A stretch of DNA of 64,000 bases, taken from NCBI RefSeq assembly GCF_013342985.1, contig NZ_CP054490.1:806001-870000 (forward strand), written 5' to 3'. Shown piece by piece: positions 4,245-64,000 of this stretch. Position numbers and translations under genes: made by a program. Each line of letters begins with the position of its first letter. Within the stretch, counting starts at the first letter, position 1. The notes below the pieces were generated by a model that ran no database searches, was not told where the DNA came from, and was given only the letters and a program-made list of their open reading frames with translations. This DNA is from Candidatus Ruthia endofausta (GTDB taxonomy: Bacteria > Pseudomonadota > Gammaproteobacteria > PS1 > Pseudothioglobaceae).

Positions 4245-5173
4245 GATAAAATTTCCTCTAAAGTTGTTTCTATACTCGCTAAATCTAAGATGGCCTTAGC
4301 CGTTAAAGATTTTTCGATTCTTTTGGTCAAATCTGTAAGTACTTTACCTGGACCAGATTCAATTAACATTGAAGCGCCCATATTATGCATCGCTTGGACA
4401 GTGTTTGTCCATAATACTGGTTTGTGTAATTGTGCAACTAGTTTGACTTTTATATCGTTAATATCTGTTGCTTTAAGTGCATCAAAATTATGTAATACGC
4501 CAACACTACCTTGATTGAACTTAACTGTATCTACAAAAATTTTAAACTCGGCTGCTACATCATTCATTAATGAGCAATGTGATGGCACGCTCACTGGTAA
4601 CACCACTGCACGCTTAGCACCTGCATCTTTCATTGCTTGACAGGTAATCTCCACAGCTTCTTTATTGCCTGCAATAACCACCTGCCCTAATGAATTAAAG
4701 TTAGCCACTTCAACAACCCCACTGCCCGTATAATTTGCACACAACTTGATGACAGTTTGATCCTCTAAACCTAGAATTGCCGCCATTACACCCACCCCTT
4801 CAGGCACTGCCGATTGCATTAATTTTGCACGCTGTTTGACCAATTTAATACCATCACTAAACCCTAAAGTGCCTGATGCTACCAATGCTGTATATTCGCC
4901 CAAACTATGGCCTGCCATACAAATAGGTGATAAATCATATTCACTAGTCAGTGCCAAATAAGTTGCATAACCTGCAGCCAACATCGCTGGCTGGGTATTT
5001 TGTGTTTGATTAAGAGCATCTTGGTCTTGCTGTATCAATACCCAAAGATCGAGCCCCAGTACATTGCTCGCCTCAGAAAATGTCTCTTTTACGATTGAAA
5101 AATGATCAGCAAGTTCTGATAACATGCCTAAAGATTGCGACCCTTGACCTGGAAATATAATAGCGTATTTCAT
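4241..5173 (-). CDS. fabD: Malonyl-CoA:ACP transacylase FabD
   Basis: Transfers malonyl from CoA to acyl carrier protein to supply the elongation unit for fatty acids. It shows the N-terminal GQGSQ oxyanion motif, the nucleophile elbow GHSLGE with Ser90, and the catalytic His in VPSHCSLM near residue 199. At 310 residues it is full length. It begins the fabD-fabG pair, lies downstream of rplU-rpmA on the same strand, and is separated from them by a hairpin terminator. Confidence 0.95.
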   Translation of the reverse strand: MKYAIIFPGQGSQSLGMLSELADHFSIVKETFSEASNVLGLDLWVLIQQDQDALNQTQNTQPAMLAAGYATYLALTSEYDLSPICMAGHSLGEYTALVASGTLGFSDGIKLVKQRAKLMQSAVPEGVGVMAAILGLEDQTVIKLCANYTGSGVVEVANFNSLGQVVIAGNKEAVEITCQAMKDAGAKRAVVLPVSVPSHCSLMNDVAAEFKIFVDTVKFNQGSVGVLHNFDALKATDINDIKVKLVAQLHKPVLWTNTVQAMHNMGASMLIESGPGKVLTDLTKRIEKSLTAKAILDLASIETTLEEILS

Positions 5174-5262: not shown

Positions 5263-5520
5263 TTACGCGGTTTCAATCGAAACATATTGACGCATAAACT
5301 TGCCTTTTTTAGCAAATACAACTCTGCCATCTATTGTAGCAAATAACGTATCGTCTTTACCCTTGCGAACATTAGTGCCTGAGTGAAATTTTGTGCCTCT
5401 TTGACGCACTAAAATGTTGCCTGCCAATACAACTTGACCACCAAATCTTTTAACACCTAGGCGTTTCGATACGGAGTCCCTACCGTTATTAGTACTACCG
5501 CCTGCTTTTTTATGTGCCAT
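5263..5520 (-). CDS. rpmA: 50S ribosomal protein L27
   Basis: L27 sits near the peptidyl-transferase centre of the large subunit. The 85-residue protein begins [16 protein letters not shown] and continues with KRFGGQ and GTKFHSG, the family hallmarks. There is no N-terminal extension of the kind cleaved in Firmicutes. It lies 10 bases after rplU in the conserved rplU-rpmA pair. The usual third member, obgE, is absent here; fabD follows instead. Confidence 0.98.
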
Positions 5521-7174: not shown

Positions 7175-8944
7175 ATCAACGGTTGTTACCTTTAGCGCTA
7201 TCTTTTCATCTAGCTTAGGCAAAATTTTAAACTTAATCTGCGTCATCATACCCAATTCAGGAATCATAAACAACACTTTGTCACCACGTGTATCCACCAC
7301 AACACCTTCACCTTGCCATGATGGATTATCAAGCAGATAAACGCATTTATAATGGTCATTACTAAAACGCACCGTTCTACCAACACTGGACATGTTGACA
7401 TTATGAATGCCGATAATATTTTTAACATCTTCCTTGTTTAGTGTATCTTCACCTTTAATAAAATGGCTGAGTTGCTGATGTGCAAGCAGATCAAGATACC
7501 TTCTAAGTGGACTGGTAATACGTAAATACGCTTTAAGTCCTAGTCCAAAATGTGGTAAATTCTTGGTGGATGTGGTTGAACGTTTAAAAAACTTTGTGGC
7601 TTTGAATGACTCAGATAAAGACAATGCATCTTTATTATCCAGTGCTCCTTGTGGAAACTTCCCTTCATCTTGAATTGCATAAGGCATAACAATGTCATTA
7701 TCAACAGAAAATTGTGCAACAACACGACCCGCCATTACCATCATTTCAGCCACCAATTCACGACTTTGACTTGAGCTTTGTGGCGTAATTGACACTTGAC
7801 CTTGCTTAAATCTAACATCAACATTGGGCAAATTTAAACTGATTGCACCACAATTATCTCTATATTGTTTGTGCGTCTTTGTAATGCCTTGTAATTTGGA
7901 TAAATGTTCATTAGACACTAACATTCCATCTGCATCATCATAGCTGATATTAGTCACTTTGATCAAACTATGAACTACTTCAATATTATCAATCTCACCT
8001 GATTCTAAAGTAAACCCTATCGATAAAGCACTTGATGTTTCAGCCAACCCCAATGCGCACATTTTTGTTGCAGAAACAGGCAACATGTGAATAATCTGTT
8101 CAGGCAAATATAAATTAGAAACACGTTCTTGTGCGTAAGTATCCAACTCAGAGCCAGCAGTAGCAATCAAAGATACATCAGCAACATGGATCCAAATCTT
8201 ATCACCATCAATACTAATTGCATCATCAGCATCGTTTGAATCAGCATTGTCTATTGCATAACTGGATAAATGCGTTAAATCAACGCGCTCAACTTGAACC
8301 ATACTAACATCAATTTGCTCATCCTTAGAAATGTCATGACGCGCTGGATAGGGATTAAAGCTTGGCTTGAAATAGTCAAGTCTTAATAACAATTTATGAG
8401 CAGACTCGGGTGTATTTTCTATACCAATATTGGCCAAAATCTTAGCGTGCTTAGATTGATTTAGTGCAACTTTTTCAATCTCTTCAATATAAGACAAATC
8501 TTGCTTATCAAAGGTATTATTGGAAAGATTATCCACACAGTGTTTAAGATTTTCAGCCTCAAGAATTTGGGCGTCACGCTTAGTTTGGATGCTTTCAACT
8601 TGAGCAGTTGGACGTATAAAAACTTTGTCTTTTTGCCAAAAAAGATACAAACCATCTTCAATTAAAATACGACTACACCAAGCGTTTTTGGCACTGTATT
8701 CGTCAAACAACCATTGCGTTATTTCTTCTAATGTTAGTGTCTCTTCTTGAAAATCTTCAAGAACAGCAATATCTGCATGTGCACAAGCATCATCTACTTG
8801 AACAAATTCAGGGTGAATAAAACGGAAATCTTTTTCCCGTACCGAACGCGAAGAACCATCAGCAAACTCTAATGCAAATTTATGCATCGTTTGCTTAACA
8901 ATACGCGCAGGTTTGCCTTTGTAGGCAACTAAAGCGTTAATCAA
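7139..8944 (-). CDS. RNase II/VacB-family 3'-5' exoribonuclease
   Basis: Hydrolytic 3'-5' exoribonuclease of the RNase II/RNase R family, probably for mRNA turnover. The central RNB domain shows the metal-binding Asp cluster in SNDADDAISID, followed by IHVADVS, and the later RITSPLRRYLDL signature containing the catalytic Arg. The N-terminus (MINALVAYKGKPARIV) is that of the VacB-like proteins rather than of E. coli RNase II, and the C-terminal S1 part is short; at 601 residues it is somewhat shorter than E. coli Rnb. It starts 8 bases after gcvH, so it is likely in the gcvT-gcvH transcript. Confidence 0.85.
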   Translation of the reverse strand: MINALVAYKGKPARIVKQTMHKFALEFADGSSRSVREKDFRFIHPEFVQVDDACAHADIAVLEDFQEETLTLEEITQWLFDEYSAKNAWCSRILIEDGLYLFWQKDKVFIRPTAQVESIQTKRDAQILEAENLKHCVDNLSNNTFDKQDLSYIEEIEKVALNQSKHAKILANIGIENTPESAHKLLLRLDYFKPSFNPYPARHDISKDEQIDVSMVQVERVDLTHLSSYAIDNADSNDADDAISIDGDKIWIHVADVSLIATAGSELDTYAQERVSNLYLPEQIIHMLPVSATKMCALGLAETSSALSIGFTLESGEIDNIEVVHSLIKVTNISYDDADGMLVSNEHLSKLQGITKTHKQYRDNCGAISLNLPNVDVRFKQGQVSITPQSSSQSRELVAEMMVMAGRVVAQFSVDNDIVMPYAIQDEGKFPQGALDNKDALSLSESFKATKFFKRSTTSTKNLPHFGLGLKAYLRITSPLRRYLDLLAHQQLSHFIKGEDTLNKEDVKNIIGIHNVNMSSVGRTVRFSNDHYKCVYLLDNPSWQGEGVVVDTRGDKVLFMIPELGMMTQIKFKILPKLDEKIALKVTTVDLVDCRANFKTI

Positions 8945-8952
8945 TTTAAATT

Positions 8953-9327
8953 TTAGTCTAGTGTTTGCGCATAAGTAGCAGCATCCATTAAGTCACTAAC
9001 TGAATGAGACTTAAATTTAACCAACCAGCCATCATCATAACAACTAGAATTAACCAGTTCTGGTTCGTCATCAAGCGCTTCGTTGACTTTAATAATTTGC
9101 AAATCAGCAGGAGCATAAACGCCACTAGCCGCTTTGACAGATTCAACCACACAAAATTCATCCTCGATAGAGACTTCATCATCAACGTTGGATAATTCTA
9201 CAAATACCGCATCACCTAATAATGCTTGTGCATAATCAGTAATACCCATGGTATAAGTACCGTCGCCATGATCTAAAATCCACTCGTGGGTTTGTGTGTA
9301 TTGTCTATCCTCTCTTATTTCGCTCAT
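8953..9327 (-). CDS. gcvH: Glycine cleavage system H protein
   Basis: Lipoyl carrier that shuttles the aminomethyl group between the P, T and L proteins of the glycine cleavage system. The lipoyl-lysine is Lys65 in [10 protein letters not shown]; the N-terminal THEW and the GITDYAQ segment are typical. The 124 residues match the family. It follows gcvT by 43 bases. gcvP is not in the window; lpdA at 43743 may supply the L protein. An AGGAG-like site precedes the ATG. Confidence 0.96.
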
Positions 9328-9370
9328 GTTCTTCTCCTGAATTTCTCAAGCAGGACTTTGCCCTACTTAT

Positions 9371-10447
9371 TTAAACCAATACTTTACCATTACGCACGAA
9401 TGGTGGTTTGACTATTTTAGCGCAAACTTTCTTTTTTCGTATCTCAATTTCACACTTGCCAGTACTACCCTTAGGTACACTTGCCAGTGCAATTGCCTTG
9501 CCCATAGTGGGTGAAAATGTGCCTGAAGTAACTTCACCTTCACTCAGGCTGGTGATTACTTTTTGATGATCTCGAATTACACCTTTGCCTTCTAAAACTA
9601 ATCCAACAATAGTCCTTTCAACGCCTTTTTCTTTTAATGCTTCTAATGCATCACGACCTATAAATGCACGATTTTCATTGACCAGATCAACCGTCCAAGT
9701 GAGTGCCGCTTCAAGTGGTGAAACCTCATCACTCATCTCTGAACCATATAAACTCATACCTGCTTCTAGGCGCAAAGTGTCACGCGCGCCTAAACCACAA
9801 GGCTTAACGCCAGCCTCAAATAACATTTGCCAAGTAAATTTGGCCGAACTTGAAGGCAGCATAATCTCAAACCCATCTTCACCTGTATAGCCTGTACGTG
9901 CAATGAATAACCCGCCTAAACTAGCCGCATTAAATGGCTTTAACTCACCACAAACCTCTTCAAGGCCTGGCATGGCTGTAAATACTTTTGCCCTTGCATT
10001 TGGACCTTGTACAGCAATCATTGCTAAATCAGACATCCGCTCAACCGATACATCAAAATCATTTACTTGGACCTTAATCCAGAGCATATCCTTTTCAGCA
10101 GTACCCGCATTAATTACCATGCGATAATATTCGTCATTTTGGTAATAAACAATCAAATCATCCACCACTCCACCTGATTTATTTAGCATGCAACTATATA
10201 ACGCCTTGCCTTGTGTTTTCAGCTTATCAACATCATTAGCAATCAAAACTTGCAAAAATGCTTTTGCTTCAGCACCTTTAAAATCAACCACACTCATGTG
10301 CGAAACATCAAACATACCTGCATCACGGCGCACTTGATGATGCTCCTCAATTTGAGAGCCATAATTAAGCGGCATTTCCCAACCTCCAAAATCAACCATC
10401 TTCCCTTGCGACTCTATGTGTGTTTGATACAAAGGCGTTTGTTTCAT
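9371..10447 (-). CDS. gcvT: Aminomethyltransferase (glycine cleavage T protein)
   Basis: Transfers the one-carbon unit from the lipoyl-bound aminomethyl group to tetrahydrofolate, releasing ammonia. Visible are the N-terminal [21 protein letters not shown], the folate-binding region around DVSHM, the [11 protein letters not shown] motif near residue 195, and the C-terminal GCV_T barrel with [12 protein letters not shown]. Length 358 is normal. The upstream gene yciB ends only 6 bases before it, so no leader is available for a glycine riboswitch. Confidence 0.96.
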
Positions 10448-10453
10448 TATTTT

Positions 10454-11101
10454 TTATCCTTTTTTAATGTATTTATTGATAAAAATTATCGTGATAACAA
10501 TCAATATAAATGTTAGCCCTATGGTGCCAAATAGCTTGAAATTAACCCAAGATTCCTCAGTCTGCTGGGCAATAATACAAAGTTGCTCCATTGTTGTATT
10601 TGCACAATCTAGCTCTGTCAATTCAATTTTAGAATCAAGTTCAGTAGCGGTAAATAACTTCTCTCTAGCACCCAAAGCAAGATTAACATAATAAGCATTA
10701 ACAATAGAAATGCCTGTAAAACCAAGCCCCCACAACCAACTAAGTTGATGCCACACATTTTCTGACAATTCTAATTCTTTACCCAACATCCTTTGCAATA
10801 AAGTTTTCTTGCCAATCCACATACTCAACACTAGCGCAAAAGCAAACACCACATACAACACACTAACTTTCCACATTAAAAATGCAGGATTTCTAAGGGC
10901 AAGTGTTGCACCACCTAAAATCACCAATAAACCAAATGTTATTAAATGGATGTTTTCAAACTTGTCCGTTCGGTAACGTGCAATCATCATCTGCAAAAAA
11001 GTTGCACCAATCATGGCATAAATTGCCATGTATAAACCCATCGTCTTATAAATAACAAAAAATAGGACAATAGGAAAAAAATCAAGTAAAAATTTCATCA
11101 C
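10454..11101 (-). CDS. yciB: YciB, inner-membrane spanning protein
   Basis: YciB (also called intracellular septation protein A) is a polytopic inner-membrane protein linked to cell-envelope synthesis and division. The start (MKFLLDFFPIVLFF) and the RNPAFLMWKVSVLY and NAYYVNLALG segments are diagnostic. I count five to six hydrophobic segments. A loop of about 30 residues rich in Glu, Asp and Thr (roughly residues 148-178) is an insertion relative to E. coli YciB. Two ATGs in tandem begin the frame. It sits directly upstream of gcvT and one base after the small PP0621-like gene. Confidence 0.88.
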   Translation of the reverse strand: MMKFLLDFFPIVLFFVIYKTMGLYMAIYAMIGATFLQMMIARYRTDKFENIHLITFGLLVILGGATLALRNPAFLMWKVSVLYVVFAFALVLSMWIGKKTLLQRMLGKELELSENVWHQLSWLWGLGFTGISIVNAYYVNLALGAREKLFTATELDSKIELTELDCANTTMEQLCIIAQQTEESWVNFKLFGTIGLTFILIVITIIFINKYIKKG

Positions 11102-41089: not shown

Positions 41090-41570
41090 ACTAAGCCTTG
41101 ATATTTAAGTAGATAAAAAGTAAATATTGCTAATATAGCAATCATACTCAATAAAACTATCAACCATATAATAAATTGGGTTAAATTTAGACATATCTTG
41201 CCAAAATTTTGGCAATATCTTCACACTATAAAACATACCGCCAAGATAAGTCATGGGCATCAAAATGAAAGTCGGAACAATAGAGATGTCATCAAACGAT
41301 TGAGCAAATACGGCATTAATAAACCCTGCCAGTGAAAACAAAACTGAAGTGAGTAAAAAGATAATTAACACGATGAGCATACTGTCTACTATTTCAAAAT
41401 CAATAAAAAACCAAACAACAATAAAAACTCCTCATCCGACTACAAAACAGCGTATGACACCACCAAAAAATCAACAAATATAATGACGCTGTTATGATGG
41501 TGGAAAAATATAATGCACCCAAATGCAAGGTAATCGTAGAACCTTCTTAACAACAATAGTCTTATAAGTA
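41090..41570 (-). pseudogene. ABC-2 permease pseudogene (YadH-like)
   Basis: The best frame (41380-41105) reads LLTSVLFSLAGFINAVFAQS, FDDISIVPTFILMPMTYLGG and FNPIYYMVDSF, the C-terminal half of a YadH-type ABC-2 export permease. Upstream pieces, KTIVVKKVLR and an interrupted IWVHYIFPP, match the family's N-terminus, but the segment between is deleted. Stops lie between the pieces. It follows the ATPase relic as yadH follows yadG in E. coli. Confidence 0.75.
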
Positions 41571-61119: not shown

Positions 61120-61425
61120 TTAACAAAGTTCAAGTTTCTTACCGCCACGCATCTTTTTACCTTGTGCAGCCCGCTCCTTGCGCACTGCTTTAGGGTCAGC
61201 AATCAGTGGACGATAAATCTCAACTCGGTCTTTGTCTCTAAGTATTGTATCAAGTTTGGCAATTTTACCAAAAATACCAGTTTTGTCTTTAATAAGATCA
61301 ACCTGCGGATAAATATCCAATATGCCAGATACCTCAATCGCTTGCTTTAAAGTCACCCCTTCGTTCACTTCTAGCTCAAGTAAAGTCTGCTTATCTCTTA
61401 AAGCGTAGGCAACCTCAATTTGCAT
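61120..61425 (-). CDS. rnfH: RnfH/RatB-family ubiquitin-like protein
   Basis: 101-residue beta-grasp protein of the UPF0125/RnfH family. [56 protein letters not shown] are typical. I start at the ATG at 61425, inside the last codons of hisA, giving [10 protein letters not shown]; the frame is open to 61515 but that part lies inside hisA. ratA and smpB, its usual neighbours, are absent. Function is unsettled. Confidence 0.88.
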
Positions 61426-62146
61426 CGCAAAATTGTTGTGCTTGTTTAAAATCAAGCGTGCCTTCATAAATCGCCCGTCCAGTAATCGCCCCCATAATGC
61501 CAAAGTGTGCCTCAACTAATAATCCAGAGATGTCTTCCATATTAGTAATTCCGCCCGAGGCAATAATGGGAATTGAGGTTTGCTTAGCAAGATTAACTGT
61601 GGCTTTGACATTCACTCCCTGCATCATGCCATCACACGCAATATCTGTATAAACAATAGAACTCACCCCGTCTTGTTCAAATTTTTTCGATAAATCCACC
61701 ACATTCAAATCCGTTTGCTGCGCCCAACCCTGTGTTGCCACCAAACCATCATTCGCATCCAAACCCACAATCACCTTGCCAGGGAATTCACGACACAACT
61801 CAGATACAAACTCAGGGTTTGTTACTGCCATCGTACCAATAATCAAATAACTAATGCCCACTTCGATATAAGTATTCGCAATCTGCATATTACGAATACC
61901 ACCTCCAATTTGCACTGGCAAATCAGGAAATGCTGATACGATTTCAGTCACACTAACCGCATTGACGGGTTTGCCTTCAAACGCACCATTAAGATCCACC
62001 AAGTGTAATCTGCGCGTACCTTGCTCTACCCACTGCGCCGCCATTTCAACAGGGTTATCAGAAAATACTGTCGTATCGGTCATCAAACCTTGTCTTAAAC
62101 GAACACATTGACCATCTTTTAAATCTATTGCTGGAATAACAACCAT
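61415..62146 (-). CDS. hisA: Phosphoribosylformimino-5-aminoimidazole carboxamide ribotide isomerase
   Basis: Amadori-type isomerisation of ProFAR to PRFAR, the substrate of HisF/HisH, in histidine synthesis. TIM barrel with the catalytic Asp in [15 protein letters not shown] at the start, [11 protein letters not shown], and the second catalytic Asp in [12 protein letters not shown] near residue 170, then IIASGGI. 243 residues. Separate from hisC, hisB and hisH, which lie at 32-37 kb. Confidence 0.96.
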
Positions 62147-62729
62147 ATTTTCTCTTAATTATTGTGTCAACAATATCCAATCATTTCAAGCAAATATTGC
62201 TGATTAGAATTTTCACCACTTTTAAAATCTGACAAAAAATCCTAGTGTATAGGTGCAATTTATTAATCAAACCCTCTAAATAACCACTTATTTTTTCTTA
62301 TCTTTTTAGTTACGTATTATAGCTTTTAGATCCTTACTCACTCTATAAGTTTTACTGCTCAATATCATGATTTCTTTAGCCAAGTAATGCTTCTTTTAGC
62401 AATAGAAGAGTGCATTTAACGTTATGTTCAAGCAATAACCTTAAGAATATAAGTGAAGTTTTATAAAACATTTATAATTTTTAGACATTATCTCCTCCTT
62501 TATCCTTATTTATATCAAGATCAAAGGAAATACTATACCTAAGACTTAATCCAAATAGAAATTACGCTAAAACTAAAGCCTAAATCTATTAAATCCATAA
62601 ATAAAGAAATAAGCTCGGACATGAAAAAGCCATTACTAACGTATAAAAAATACGCTGTGGTTTACTTTCAAACATTTTATACCTCTTATACCTCTTATAC
62701 CTCGCTTAATTAGTAACTATTATGAGTAC
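62147..62729. other. Gene-free stretch
   Basis: 583 bases upstream of hisA and beyond the glyoxalase-family gene end. No frame or motif that I can support on either strand. AT-rich, with a short tandem repeat at 62677-62703. Possibly eroded genes, now unrecognisable. Confidence 0.5.
62677..62703. repeat. Three tandem copies of a 9-mer
   Basis: TTATACCTC is repeated three times without spacers (62677-62703). Slippage-type microsatellite. Confidence 0.75.
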
Positions 62730-63161
62730 TTACCATTCACCAATGATTGGCATGTTAACCCATGATTCTTGTATTTCCAATGCATCACCCTCTTGCAATA
62801 GTTCAATTGATATATTATCAGGTGAGCGCACAAAAGCCATATGCCCATTTTTAGGCGGAAAATTAATAACAACATCCGCATCCATCAATCGCTTACATGT
62901 CTCATATATATTTTTTACTCTAAATGCCAAGTGTCCGAAATTTCTCCCTCCGGTATATTCTTCTTTATTCCAATTGTGAGTAATTTCAATTAATGGTGGA
63001 TTTGCATGGTTGGCATCTTCATCTGCTGCCAAAAAAATAAGCGTGAACTCTTCTTGGGGATAATCTTTCCTGCTAACTTCAATCAAACCCAAAACATCGC
63101 AATAAAACTGCAAGGTTTTATCAAGATCAGTTACTCTAATCATAGTATGTAAGTACTTCAT
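62730..63161 (-). CDS. gloA: VOC-family protein, lactoylglutathione lyase-like
   Basis: 143-residue protein of the vicinal oxygen chelate superfamily with two beta-alpha-beta-beta-beta modules. LHTMIRVTDLDKTLQFYCDV at the start, LIEITHNWNKEEYTGG in the middle and GHLAFRVKNIYETC are as in glyoxalase I, which detoxifies methylglyoxal hemithioacetal. Metal ligands expected are His5, Glu in PPLIEITHNW, His in GHLAF and Glu in NISIELLQEG. AGGAAA precedes the ATG. The C-terminus is slightly extended. Confidence 0.8.
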   Translation of the reverse strand: MKYLHTMIRVTDLDKTLQFYCDVLGLIEVSRKDYPQEEFTLIFLAADEDANHANPPLIEITHNWNKEEYTGGRNFGHLAFRVKNIYETCKRLMDADVVINFPPKNGHMAFVRSPDNISIELLQEGDALEIQESWVNMPIIGEW

Positions 63162-63364
63162 ATTTATTTCCTATTGCTCACAAAATTGAATCTTCTCAAT
63201 TGATTTAAAACTAGTAGGGATTTTCCCCAAAACAATTTTTTAGCATTTTGGCATTTTTTACTTGTGCCAAGCAATCCAAAATACAATAACACCGTCAAAC
63301 ATTCATCCAAAATCTAAACATAAAAACATTTTATCACCTTTTTTAATTGATTAATGAAAGCTAA
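63162..63364. other. Junction between bacterial and phage-like sequence
   Basis: 203 bases between the glyoxalase-family gene and the microvirus Rep fragment. No VP5-like small gene, which normally follows rep in gokushoviruses, and no sequence resembling a dif site was seen. The composition is ordinary AT-rich, like the rest of the window. Confidence 0.4.
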
Positions 63365-64000
63365 TTAAACTATAGAACGAGTAAGAGAGGATATTTGAGA
63401 ACGCTTAACTTCTTCCTTAACAGCAAGACGCTCAGGAGTATTATCATCAGCAAGAGTATAAGCATTATCCTCACGAAGGATCTTAAGATTCATAAAATCC
63501 GCAGGCATATCATGCTCGTATTTACGATCATAATATGTAGGAGGACGCATTTTCTTACCACGAACAACAATAGAGTCAGCAGGATAAACATCAGATTTAA
63601 ATTTATCATACCATCCAGAACCAATACCAGGTTTTAAAGACATAGTACTATATTCAGGTAGAAGAGACCAAACTTCACCAGTAGCATCATCAACACAACG
63701 ATAATGGTCGTCCTTACGACGACCATTAATCTTTTTCATAACATAAGGAGTCACATAAGCAGTGGACTCAAAGGTGACAGACCCAACAGTAGTGAAACCC
63801 TTTCCCCAAAGGGTTTCAAGAATCTCAGAAATATAAAGAAAAGTACCATCTTTATTTTTTTAAAAAGGAACTCGATCTTCGAAATGATGATTAAAGAGAA
63901 TAGCATGATAGTGAGGGCGTTTATGTAAATCGCCATACTCACCACAATGATAGAAACAAATCTTTTTATGAGAATACTTCTTACGAAGAGGTTTCATAAA
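63365..64000 (-). pseudogene. Microvirus (gokushovirus-type) replication initiator Rep/VP4, partial
   Basis: The minus-strand frame is open to the window edge and reads FMKPLRKKYSHKKICFYHCG, then GEYGDLHKRPHYHAILFNHH (HUH-like motif HYH), a TAA at 63862-63860, then KDGTFLYISEILETLWGKGF and TAYVTPYVMKK with the paired tyrosines (63757-63755 and 63745-63743) expected of the nicking site, then LKPGIGSGWYDKFKSDVYP and GKKMRPPTYYDRKYE, all hallmarks of gokushovirus VP4, ending at 63365. The stop does not change the frame. Third codon positions are strongly T-rich, as in ssDNA phages and unlike neighbours. About 100 N-terminal residues lie beyond the window. GTG at 63754 could restart the C-terminal part. 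Confidence 0.9.

Follow-up and report, generated by a model that had tools for sequence, protein, structure and literature searches.

A split replication gene at the end of the window

The window, by which we mean the whole 64,000-nucleotide stretch analysed here, corresponds to C1:806001-870000 of a bacterial genome (G000) assembled as one contig of 1,188,809 bases and listed as 99.97% complete and 0.1% contaminated. Its host is probably a reduced-genome thiotrophic symbiont of the vesicomyid-clam type. Features that run past the end of the window are given in the coordinates of L002 (C1:865500-882500), to which 59499 is added to obtain window positions.

The window ends inside a phage gene. 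A minus-strand frame at 63365-64000, broken by an in-frame TAA, is the C-terminal part of a VP4/rep gene whose start codon lies past the window end at L002 4873. The four segments from which the preliminary description recognised a gokushovirus replication initiator (RPHYHAILF, YVTPYVMKK, GIGSGWYDKFKSDVYP and PPTYYDRKYE) are all present in it. The HUH motif (HYH, VP4 residues 154-156) is encoded at 63905-63913 and the YVTPY motif (residues 206-210) at 63743-63757, both on the minus strand, and together these are features of a two-tyrosine HUH enzyme. An in-frame TAA at 63860-63862, absent from the preliminary description, splits VP4 between the two motifs and leaves an N-terminal piece of 170 residues (L002 4361-4873). 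Both pieces match phrog_942 (replication initiation protein) with E values far beyond chance, 5.1e-61 for the N-terminal and 5.2e-48 for the C-terminal piece, so that the assignment to a microvirus VP4 is secure. The N-terminal piece also matches Pfam REP_ORF2-G2P (PF23343; E 1.3e-13), and tblastn with the C-terminal piece finds matches in 1429 phage records, of which the best among those listed is 55.3% identical across 99% of the query length. In a VP4 tree of 76 rows, the window's copy sits on a long, unplaced branch. Comparison with relatives sets the host/phage boundary at 63373/63374, and the last few codons of the frame and its stop are therefore host sequence.

The insert and its empty site in related genomes

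The gokushovirus DNA occupies the minus strand of the window from 63374 to 64000 and extends ~1.1 kb past its end, as an insert of ~1723 bases (~1.72 kb; G000:C1:869374-871096, L002 3875-5597), compared with ~4-5 kb for a complete gokushovirus circle. Past 64000, the same strand carries the rest of VP4, an origin-like element (half-origin at L002 4960-4982) and VP3, the internal scaffolding protein (149 residues, L002 4977-5426; PF09675 E 1.3e-20, phrog_1642 E 3.3e-22). Ahead of VP3 a short frame, reaching ~L002 5597, reads by eye as the tail of the pilot protein VP2; a stretch of 30 of its residues has no PHROG match. An inverted repeat seen by eye between this VP2-like tail and VP3 (CTCTGGG / CCCAGAG, L002 ~5458-5496) is perhaps a terminator. 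The insert has no frame for the major capsid protein VP1; a PF02305 search of the genome gave no match, but gave none in any control either. The rest of rep, VP3 and, on the far side, bacterial genes are found where the preliminary description had suggested looking for them, and the sequence does not close into the circular 4-6 kb phage genome that it named as a refutation of integration, but continues as ~1.1 kb of phage DNA followed by host genes.

To the left, the insert adjoins a host flank (63205-63373) common to three relatives (G004, G010 and G011), a host glyoxalase-family gene (62730-63161, minus strand; PF00903 E 2.3e-18) and a host gene identified as hisA from its translation (61415-62146, minus strand). 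Three exact copies of the 9-base repeat TTATACCTC lie at 62677-62703, beside the glyoxalase-family gene. The right side has host genes in decay, with a LysR-type HTH, a ChlI piece and a DUF4007-like piece that falls below its cut-off, as well as intact ones, by eye tsaD and others. The decayed genes of L002 5600-10100 (LysR-type, DJ-1-like by eye, DUF4007-like, ChlI/ComM-like) vary in their degree of intactness among congeners.

With hisA as the anchor, L002 was compared with the same place in the 11 other genomes of the genus. Left-flank homology stops at L002 3874 in three genomes (G004, G010 and G011); right-flank homology starts at L002 5598 in three (G002, G010 and G011), further right in others, and is lacking in some. 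Between the flank points G010 and G011 carry 1.6 and 1.9 kb of host DNA, none of which is left in L002: in the window's genome, host DNA has therefore given way to phage DNA. By hisA, the genome closest to it is G002 (97% protein identity; flank blocks 93-96% identical in DNA, 75-79% in decaying stretches). G002 retains ~1.1 kb of this intervening DNA at 83% identity, and the insertion is most simply placed after the split of G000 and G002. The outer ends of the insert look like illegitimate joins. With no capsid gene, one stop in rep and host DNA replaced, the insert is a relic and not a virus.

The preliminary description had offered either an integrated microvirus, or its relic, or a chimeric assembly. 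Relatives keep a phage-free site, with which both flanks align, so that the insert is not an assembly chimera; it lies in a single 1.19 Mb contig with host genes on each side, its phage genes are broken and missing, and gokushovirus-like DNA is found at different insertion points in three genomes. Against these observations, a chimera or contamination by phage DNA is highly improbable.

An origin-like hairpin with a constant loop

The element in the relic recurs in free gokushovirus genomes: it is exact in 83 IMG/VR stretches, or 89 with a looser pattern. Over 97 sites in 96 contigs CTTGATGTAACTGGTCTAGGTGACACC is nearly invariant, to which the design of the search patterns itself contributes. 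One of the 96 contigs, L150, belongs to a tailed phage; L127 and L128 have the appearance of gokushovirus genomes joined together. In folding, the element gives a hairpin whose loop contains CTTGATGT or lies next to it.

An open-stem scan returned at least 120 stretches, which pooled with the earlier contigs make at least 129 distinct sites. Among the matches listed, the stems are GGTCTA (at least 68), GTGCTA (at least 56), GTGCCA (at least 3) and GTTCTA (at least 2). The stem covaries and the loop stays constant: at 61 listed sites with a stem other than GGTCTA, 8.84 of the 10 places in the upstream arm fit the partner at the same site, against 6.87 for the usual partner. Shuffling of partners within these 61 listed variants gave a mean of 8.69 and a highest value of 8.74 against the observed 8.84, a weak control because 56 of the 61 stems are identical. 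Searches of a plasmid collection with one origin stretch, and of Rfam with L002, gave no match. In the phiX174 record the origin is annotated at 4306, within CAACTTG|ATATTAA (bars mark nick or joining points), which places ACTTG|AT at the same point as the opening of the relics described below. By this likeness, the conserved hairpin would be the gokushovirus replication origin.

When 89 free circles are rotated to this origin, 60 run VP4, VP1, (VP2), VP3; a further 7 depart from this only in having no VP3 match, 1 has neither VP2 nor VP3, and 2 have a different order. The element is on the non-coding strand in 19 of the 89 (L069, L085 and L122, for example), which is a point against the insertion by Rep proposed below; its orientation relative to the genes has therefore flipped in gokushovirus evolution.

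In the window's relic the origin is internal and damaged. In alignment, nine bases of the 5' stem arm are missing and CTTG is altered, whereas the sequence on the 3' side of the nick is intact over 23 bases. In the element survey, 97/97 sites have CTTG's C and G, but one of the two search patterns required CTTG. The hairpin DNA energy, with z in brackets, is -11.1 (-4.97) for the typed consensus, -8.7 (-4.92) and -6.2 (-2.41) for the rejoined origins of G005 and G001, and -1.4 (+1.08) for the window's copy. VP3 ends in ..VKDQLPI at the nick in G005, similarly in L086 and L092, and in ..VEPIQM in the window's relic. Failed re-nicking, selection against a live chromosomal origin, or drift alone could account for the damage.

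Further relics in the genus

Gokushovirus-like DNA is present in 3 of the 12 genomes of the genus (G000, G001 and G005), in four unrelated places. PF09675 is found in the same three of 58 genomes, with G005 below the cut-off, and phrog_942 in two, G000 and G005, of the 83 family genomes; among the controls, E. coli gave a match too. The half-origin ATGTAACTGGTCTAGGTGACACC, with at most 3 mismatches allowed, has five matches, spread over 4 of the 83 family genomes. The match in G008 (3 mismatches) was taken as chance: it lies inside a gene that appears conjugation-like by eye, and ~0.17 such matches are expected by arithmetic. Among 398 phylum genomes, the window's own is the only one with a half-origin at no more than 2 mismatches, and the generality of origin-edged insertion is accordingly unsupported. 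A weak rep match at G000:C1:99673 (E 0.12) was rejected as part of a long chromosomal gene, TamB-like by eye, as was the planctomycete stretch L009, a transporter-like gene with no origin match.

The relic in G001 spans ~1.27 kb (L010 ~8652-9916) between genes named by eye as dapF and rseP, and carries in order the half-origin, the VP4 N-terminus, VP2, which is clear (phrog_22637, E 1.7e-21), and VP3. That in G005 spans ~0.67 kb (L011 ~9816-10487) between tsaB and rpsF, also named by eye. The window's genome has a second piece of ~98 bases (L166 6904-7001, G000:C1:728903-729000), in which a half-origin at C1:728911 (1 mismatch) adjoins host sequence. Its left edge is within ~8 bases of the nick point, and is the only one of the piece's edges so placed; the VP3-like stretch SLTHQSF inside the piece carries little weight.

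Relics opened at the predicted nick site

Two insertions only, those of G001 and G005, have both ends readable against empty sites. The point at which each circle was opened is (C/T)TTG|ATGT, within the origin-like hairpin's loop; both relics directly follow a host TTG, a triplet with a frequency of 0.028 in the window, and neither target shows a clear loss. Both also follow the gene order of the free circles. The empty site of G001, seen in G006, reads TTTGATGTCC; with the relic in place, the left junction is TTTG|ATGTAACTGGTC and the right one ATACTTG|ATGTCC. In G005, the minus strand has host GTTACTTG followed by ATGTAACTGGG at one junction and AGACCAGTTACCTATTTG followed by ATTTTACTTTAATA at the other; the same place in G006, which is empty, reads TTACTTGGTTTTACTTTAATA, with one host base different.

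Plain illegitimate capture at random points would make these origin edges a coincidence. The ends of the relic in the window agree with it, but two circles have their openings only a few bases from the same point. If a 4.4 kb circle opens at random, the arithmetic gives p ~0.002 each for falling within 4 bases of the nick; we regard this explanation as quite improbable. The opening of the sister relics exactly at the replication-start site instead suggests that the phage Rep, and not the usual recombination machinery of the host, inserted them.

The usual machinery would be Xer acting at dif, on which the integrated microviruses described in PMC7062461 and PMC3091885 depend or to which they are linked, and the preliminary description had likewise named dif sites as the usual place of integration. 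If this established route had been taken in the symbionts, as in the enterobacterial and Bacteroidetes prophages, the dif sites must have decayed since. Nine junction and empty-site windows score 12-15 of 28 against E. coli dif, the random level (mean 13.8), although the symbiont's own dif may differ from it. By this measure the junctions are not dif-like, and the insertion places are unrelated to one another. The best E. coli dif match in the window, 20 of 28 at 41372 on the plus strand, may be chance.

A partial origin match occurs in 6 of 5426 E. coli genomes, and the two that were opened both hold gokushovirus-like prophages. Each is bounded on both sides by dif-like sites, with 27 and 20 of 28 matches in one prophage and 27 and 25 in the other, and their hairpin is complete and internal, ~1.7 kb from the nearer dif-like site in L182; the stem differs again and the loop has CTTGATGT. 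As the hairpin of dif prophages is internal and that of the sister relics lies at the edge, entry of the symbiont copies through Xer and dif appears very improbable.

Proposed insertion by the phage replication initiator

We think it rather likely that 63374-64000 of the window is part of a 1.72 kb relic of a phage family whose circles, opened at the predicted nick site, were inserted by the phage's own two-tyrosine HUH Rep in the manner of IS91 and then eroded. Rep would nick the phage origin and stay attached to ATGT at its 5' end. The circle would not be closed; Rep would cleave a pseudo-origin in single-stranded host DNA and join the phage and host strands, as an IS91-type rolling-circle transposase does; deletions and point mutations would afterwards have eroded the copies. 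This catalysed joining is proposed by analogy with such enzymes.

The main rival dispenses with Rep in the joining step. Here, nicking by Rep or a host nuclease that attacks hairpins would linearise double-stranded phage DNA at the origin, and host end joining would capture the break through microhomology. The joints do share bases: seven (TTGATGT) are common to host and phage in G001, making microhomology joining possible there, and three in G005. The outer ends of the window's relic, with the ~1.6-1.9 kb of host DNA lost between them, would suit such a process as well. Random break repair does not, however, predict that both resolved insertions follow TTG on the strand that carries the phage TTG|ATGT, in targets without clear loss. 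We therefore consider capture of a broken phage unlikely, but a serious competitor.

Insertion by Rep has its own difficulty in the window's relic, neither end of which lies at the origin: one cuts the end of VP4 and the other, by eye, VP2. Because these ends look like illegitimate joins, its route of entry is taken from the sister relics, and it may have entered as the G001 and G005 copies did. Insertion of a dimer that was later trimmed on both sides would explain why its origin is internal.

A bolder version, to which we give an even chance, is that gokushovirus Rep doubles as a transposase, which moves phage circles from their origin into host pseudo-origins of the form (C)TTG without Xer, a second route of integration for Microviridae. 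The origin of the window's copy would later have been broken only 5' of the nick, as might happen when re-nicking fails or when a live origin in the chromosome is selected against.

Relation to known systems

The nearest counterparts are the Enterogokushovirus prophages of Escherichia (PMC7062461), likewise gokushovirus DNA in a gammaproteobacterial chromosome and with the same origin-like hairpin loop. They are complete and dif-flanked with an internal hairpin, whereas the symbiont copies are relics without dif-like ends, two of them edged at the hairpin. The Bacteroidetes proviruses BMV1-7 (PMC3091885) are likewise integrated microviruses without an integrase gene, but belong to another microvirus group and are tied to dif-like sites, in contrast with the gokushovirus relics and their ends. 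The 2020 survey in PMC7062461 gives gokushovirus prophages as detected only in enterobacteria among sequenced bacterial genomes, and mentions gokushovirus-like genes in Chlamydia.

IS91-type rolling-circle transposons also have a two-tyrosine HUH enzyme, one defined end and insertion beside a short fixed sequence, as outlined in PMC4778049. Their enzyme is a transposase; in the symbionts it would be a phage replication initiator and the insert a phage circle. The IS91 target is CTTG/GTTC. Hairpin-edged ends joined after a short fixed host sequence are seen in G001 and G005, at one edge of the second piece in the window's genome, and not in the window's relic.

The preliminary description called the virus-host link unusual. 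It is less so than claimed, because PMC4164917 reports eight identical complete gokushovirus genomes from SUP05 single cells. These are likewise Gokushovirinae in sulfur-oxidising gammaproteobacteria and are set beside the relics by their description; they are free circular genomes, whereas the symbiont copies are chromosomal. Gokushoviruses of SUP05 bacteria are thus already known, and the chromosomal copies and origin-edged junctions are apparently new: searches of open-licence literature yielded no prior report of chromosomal gokushovirus copies in these symbionts, nor any title that deals with integration of Microviridae by Rep or with origin-edged integration.

For the clam symbionts Candidatus Vesicomyosocius okutanii (1.02 Mb) and Ca. 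Ruthia magnifica (1.16 Mb), PMC3202245 describes recA as absent, with intact recA in some related symbionts, and phage and mobile elements as absent from both genomes. In a table of PMC2642828, the row for mobile element functions is 0 in every column except the first. The relics would record infection of symbionts of the kind described as being without phage and mobile elements (PMC3202245). If the proposed insertion is true, a phage replication initiator can insert its own genome in transposon fashion, joining phage replication to HUH transposition, and origin-edged relics make the insertion sites predictable and testable.
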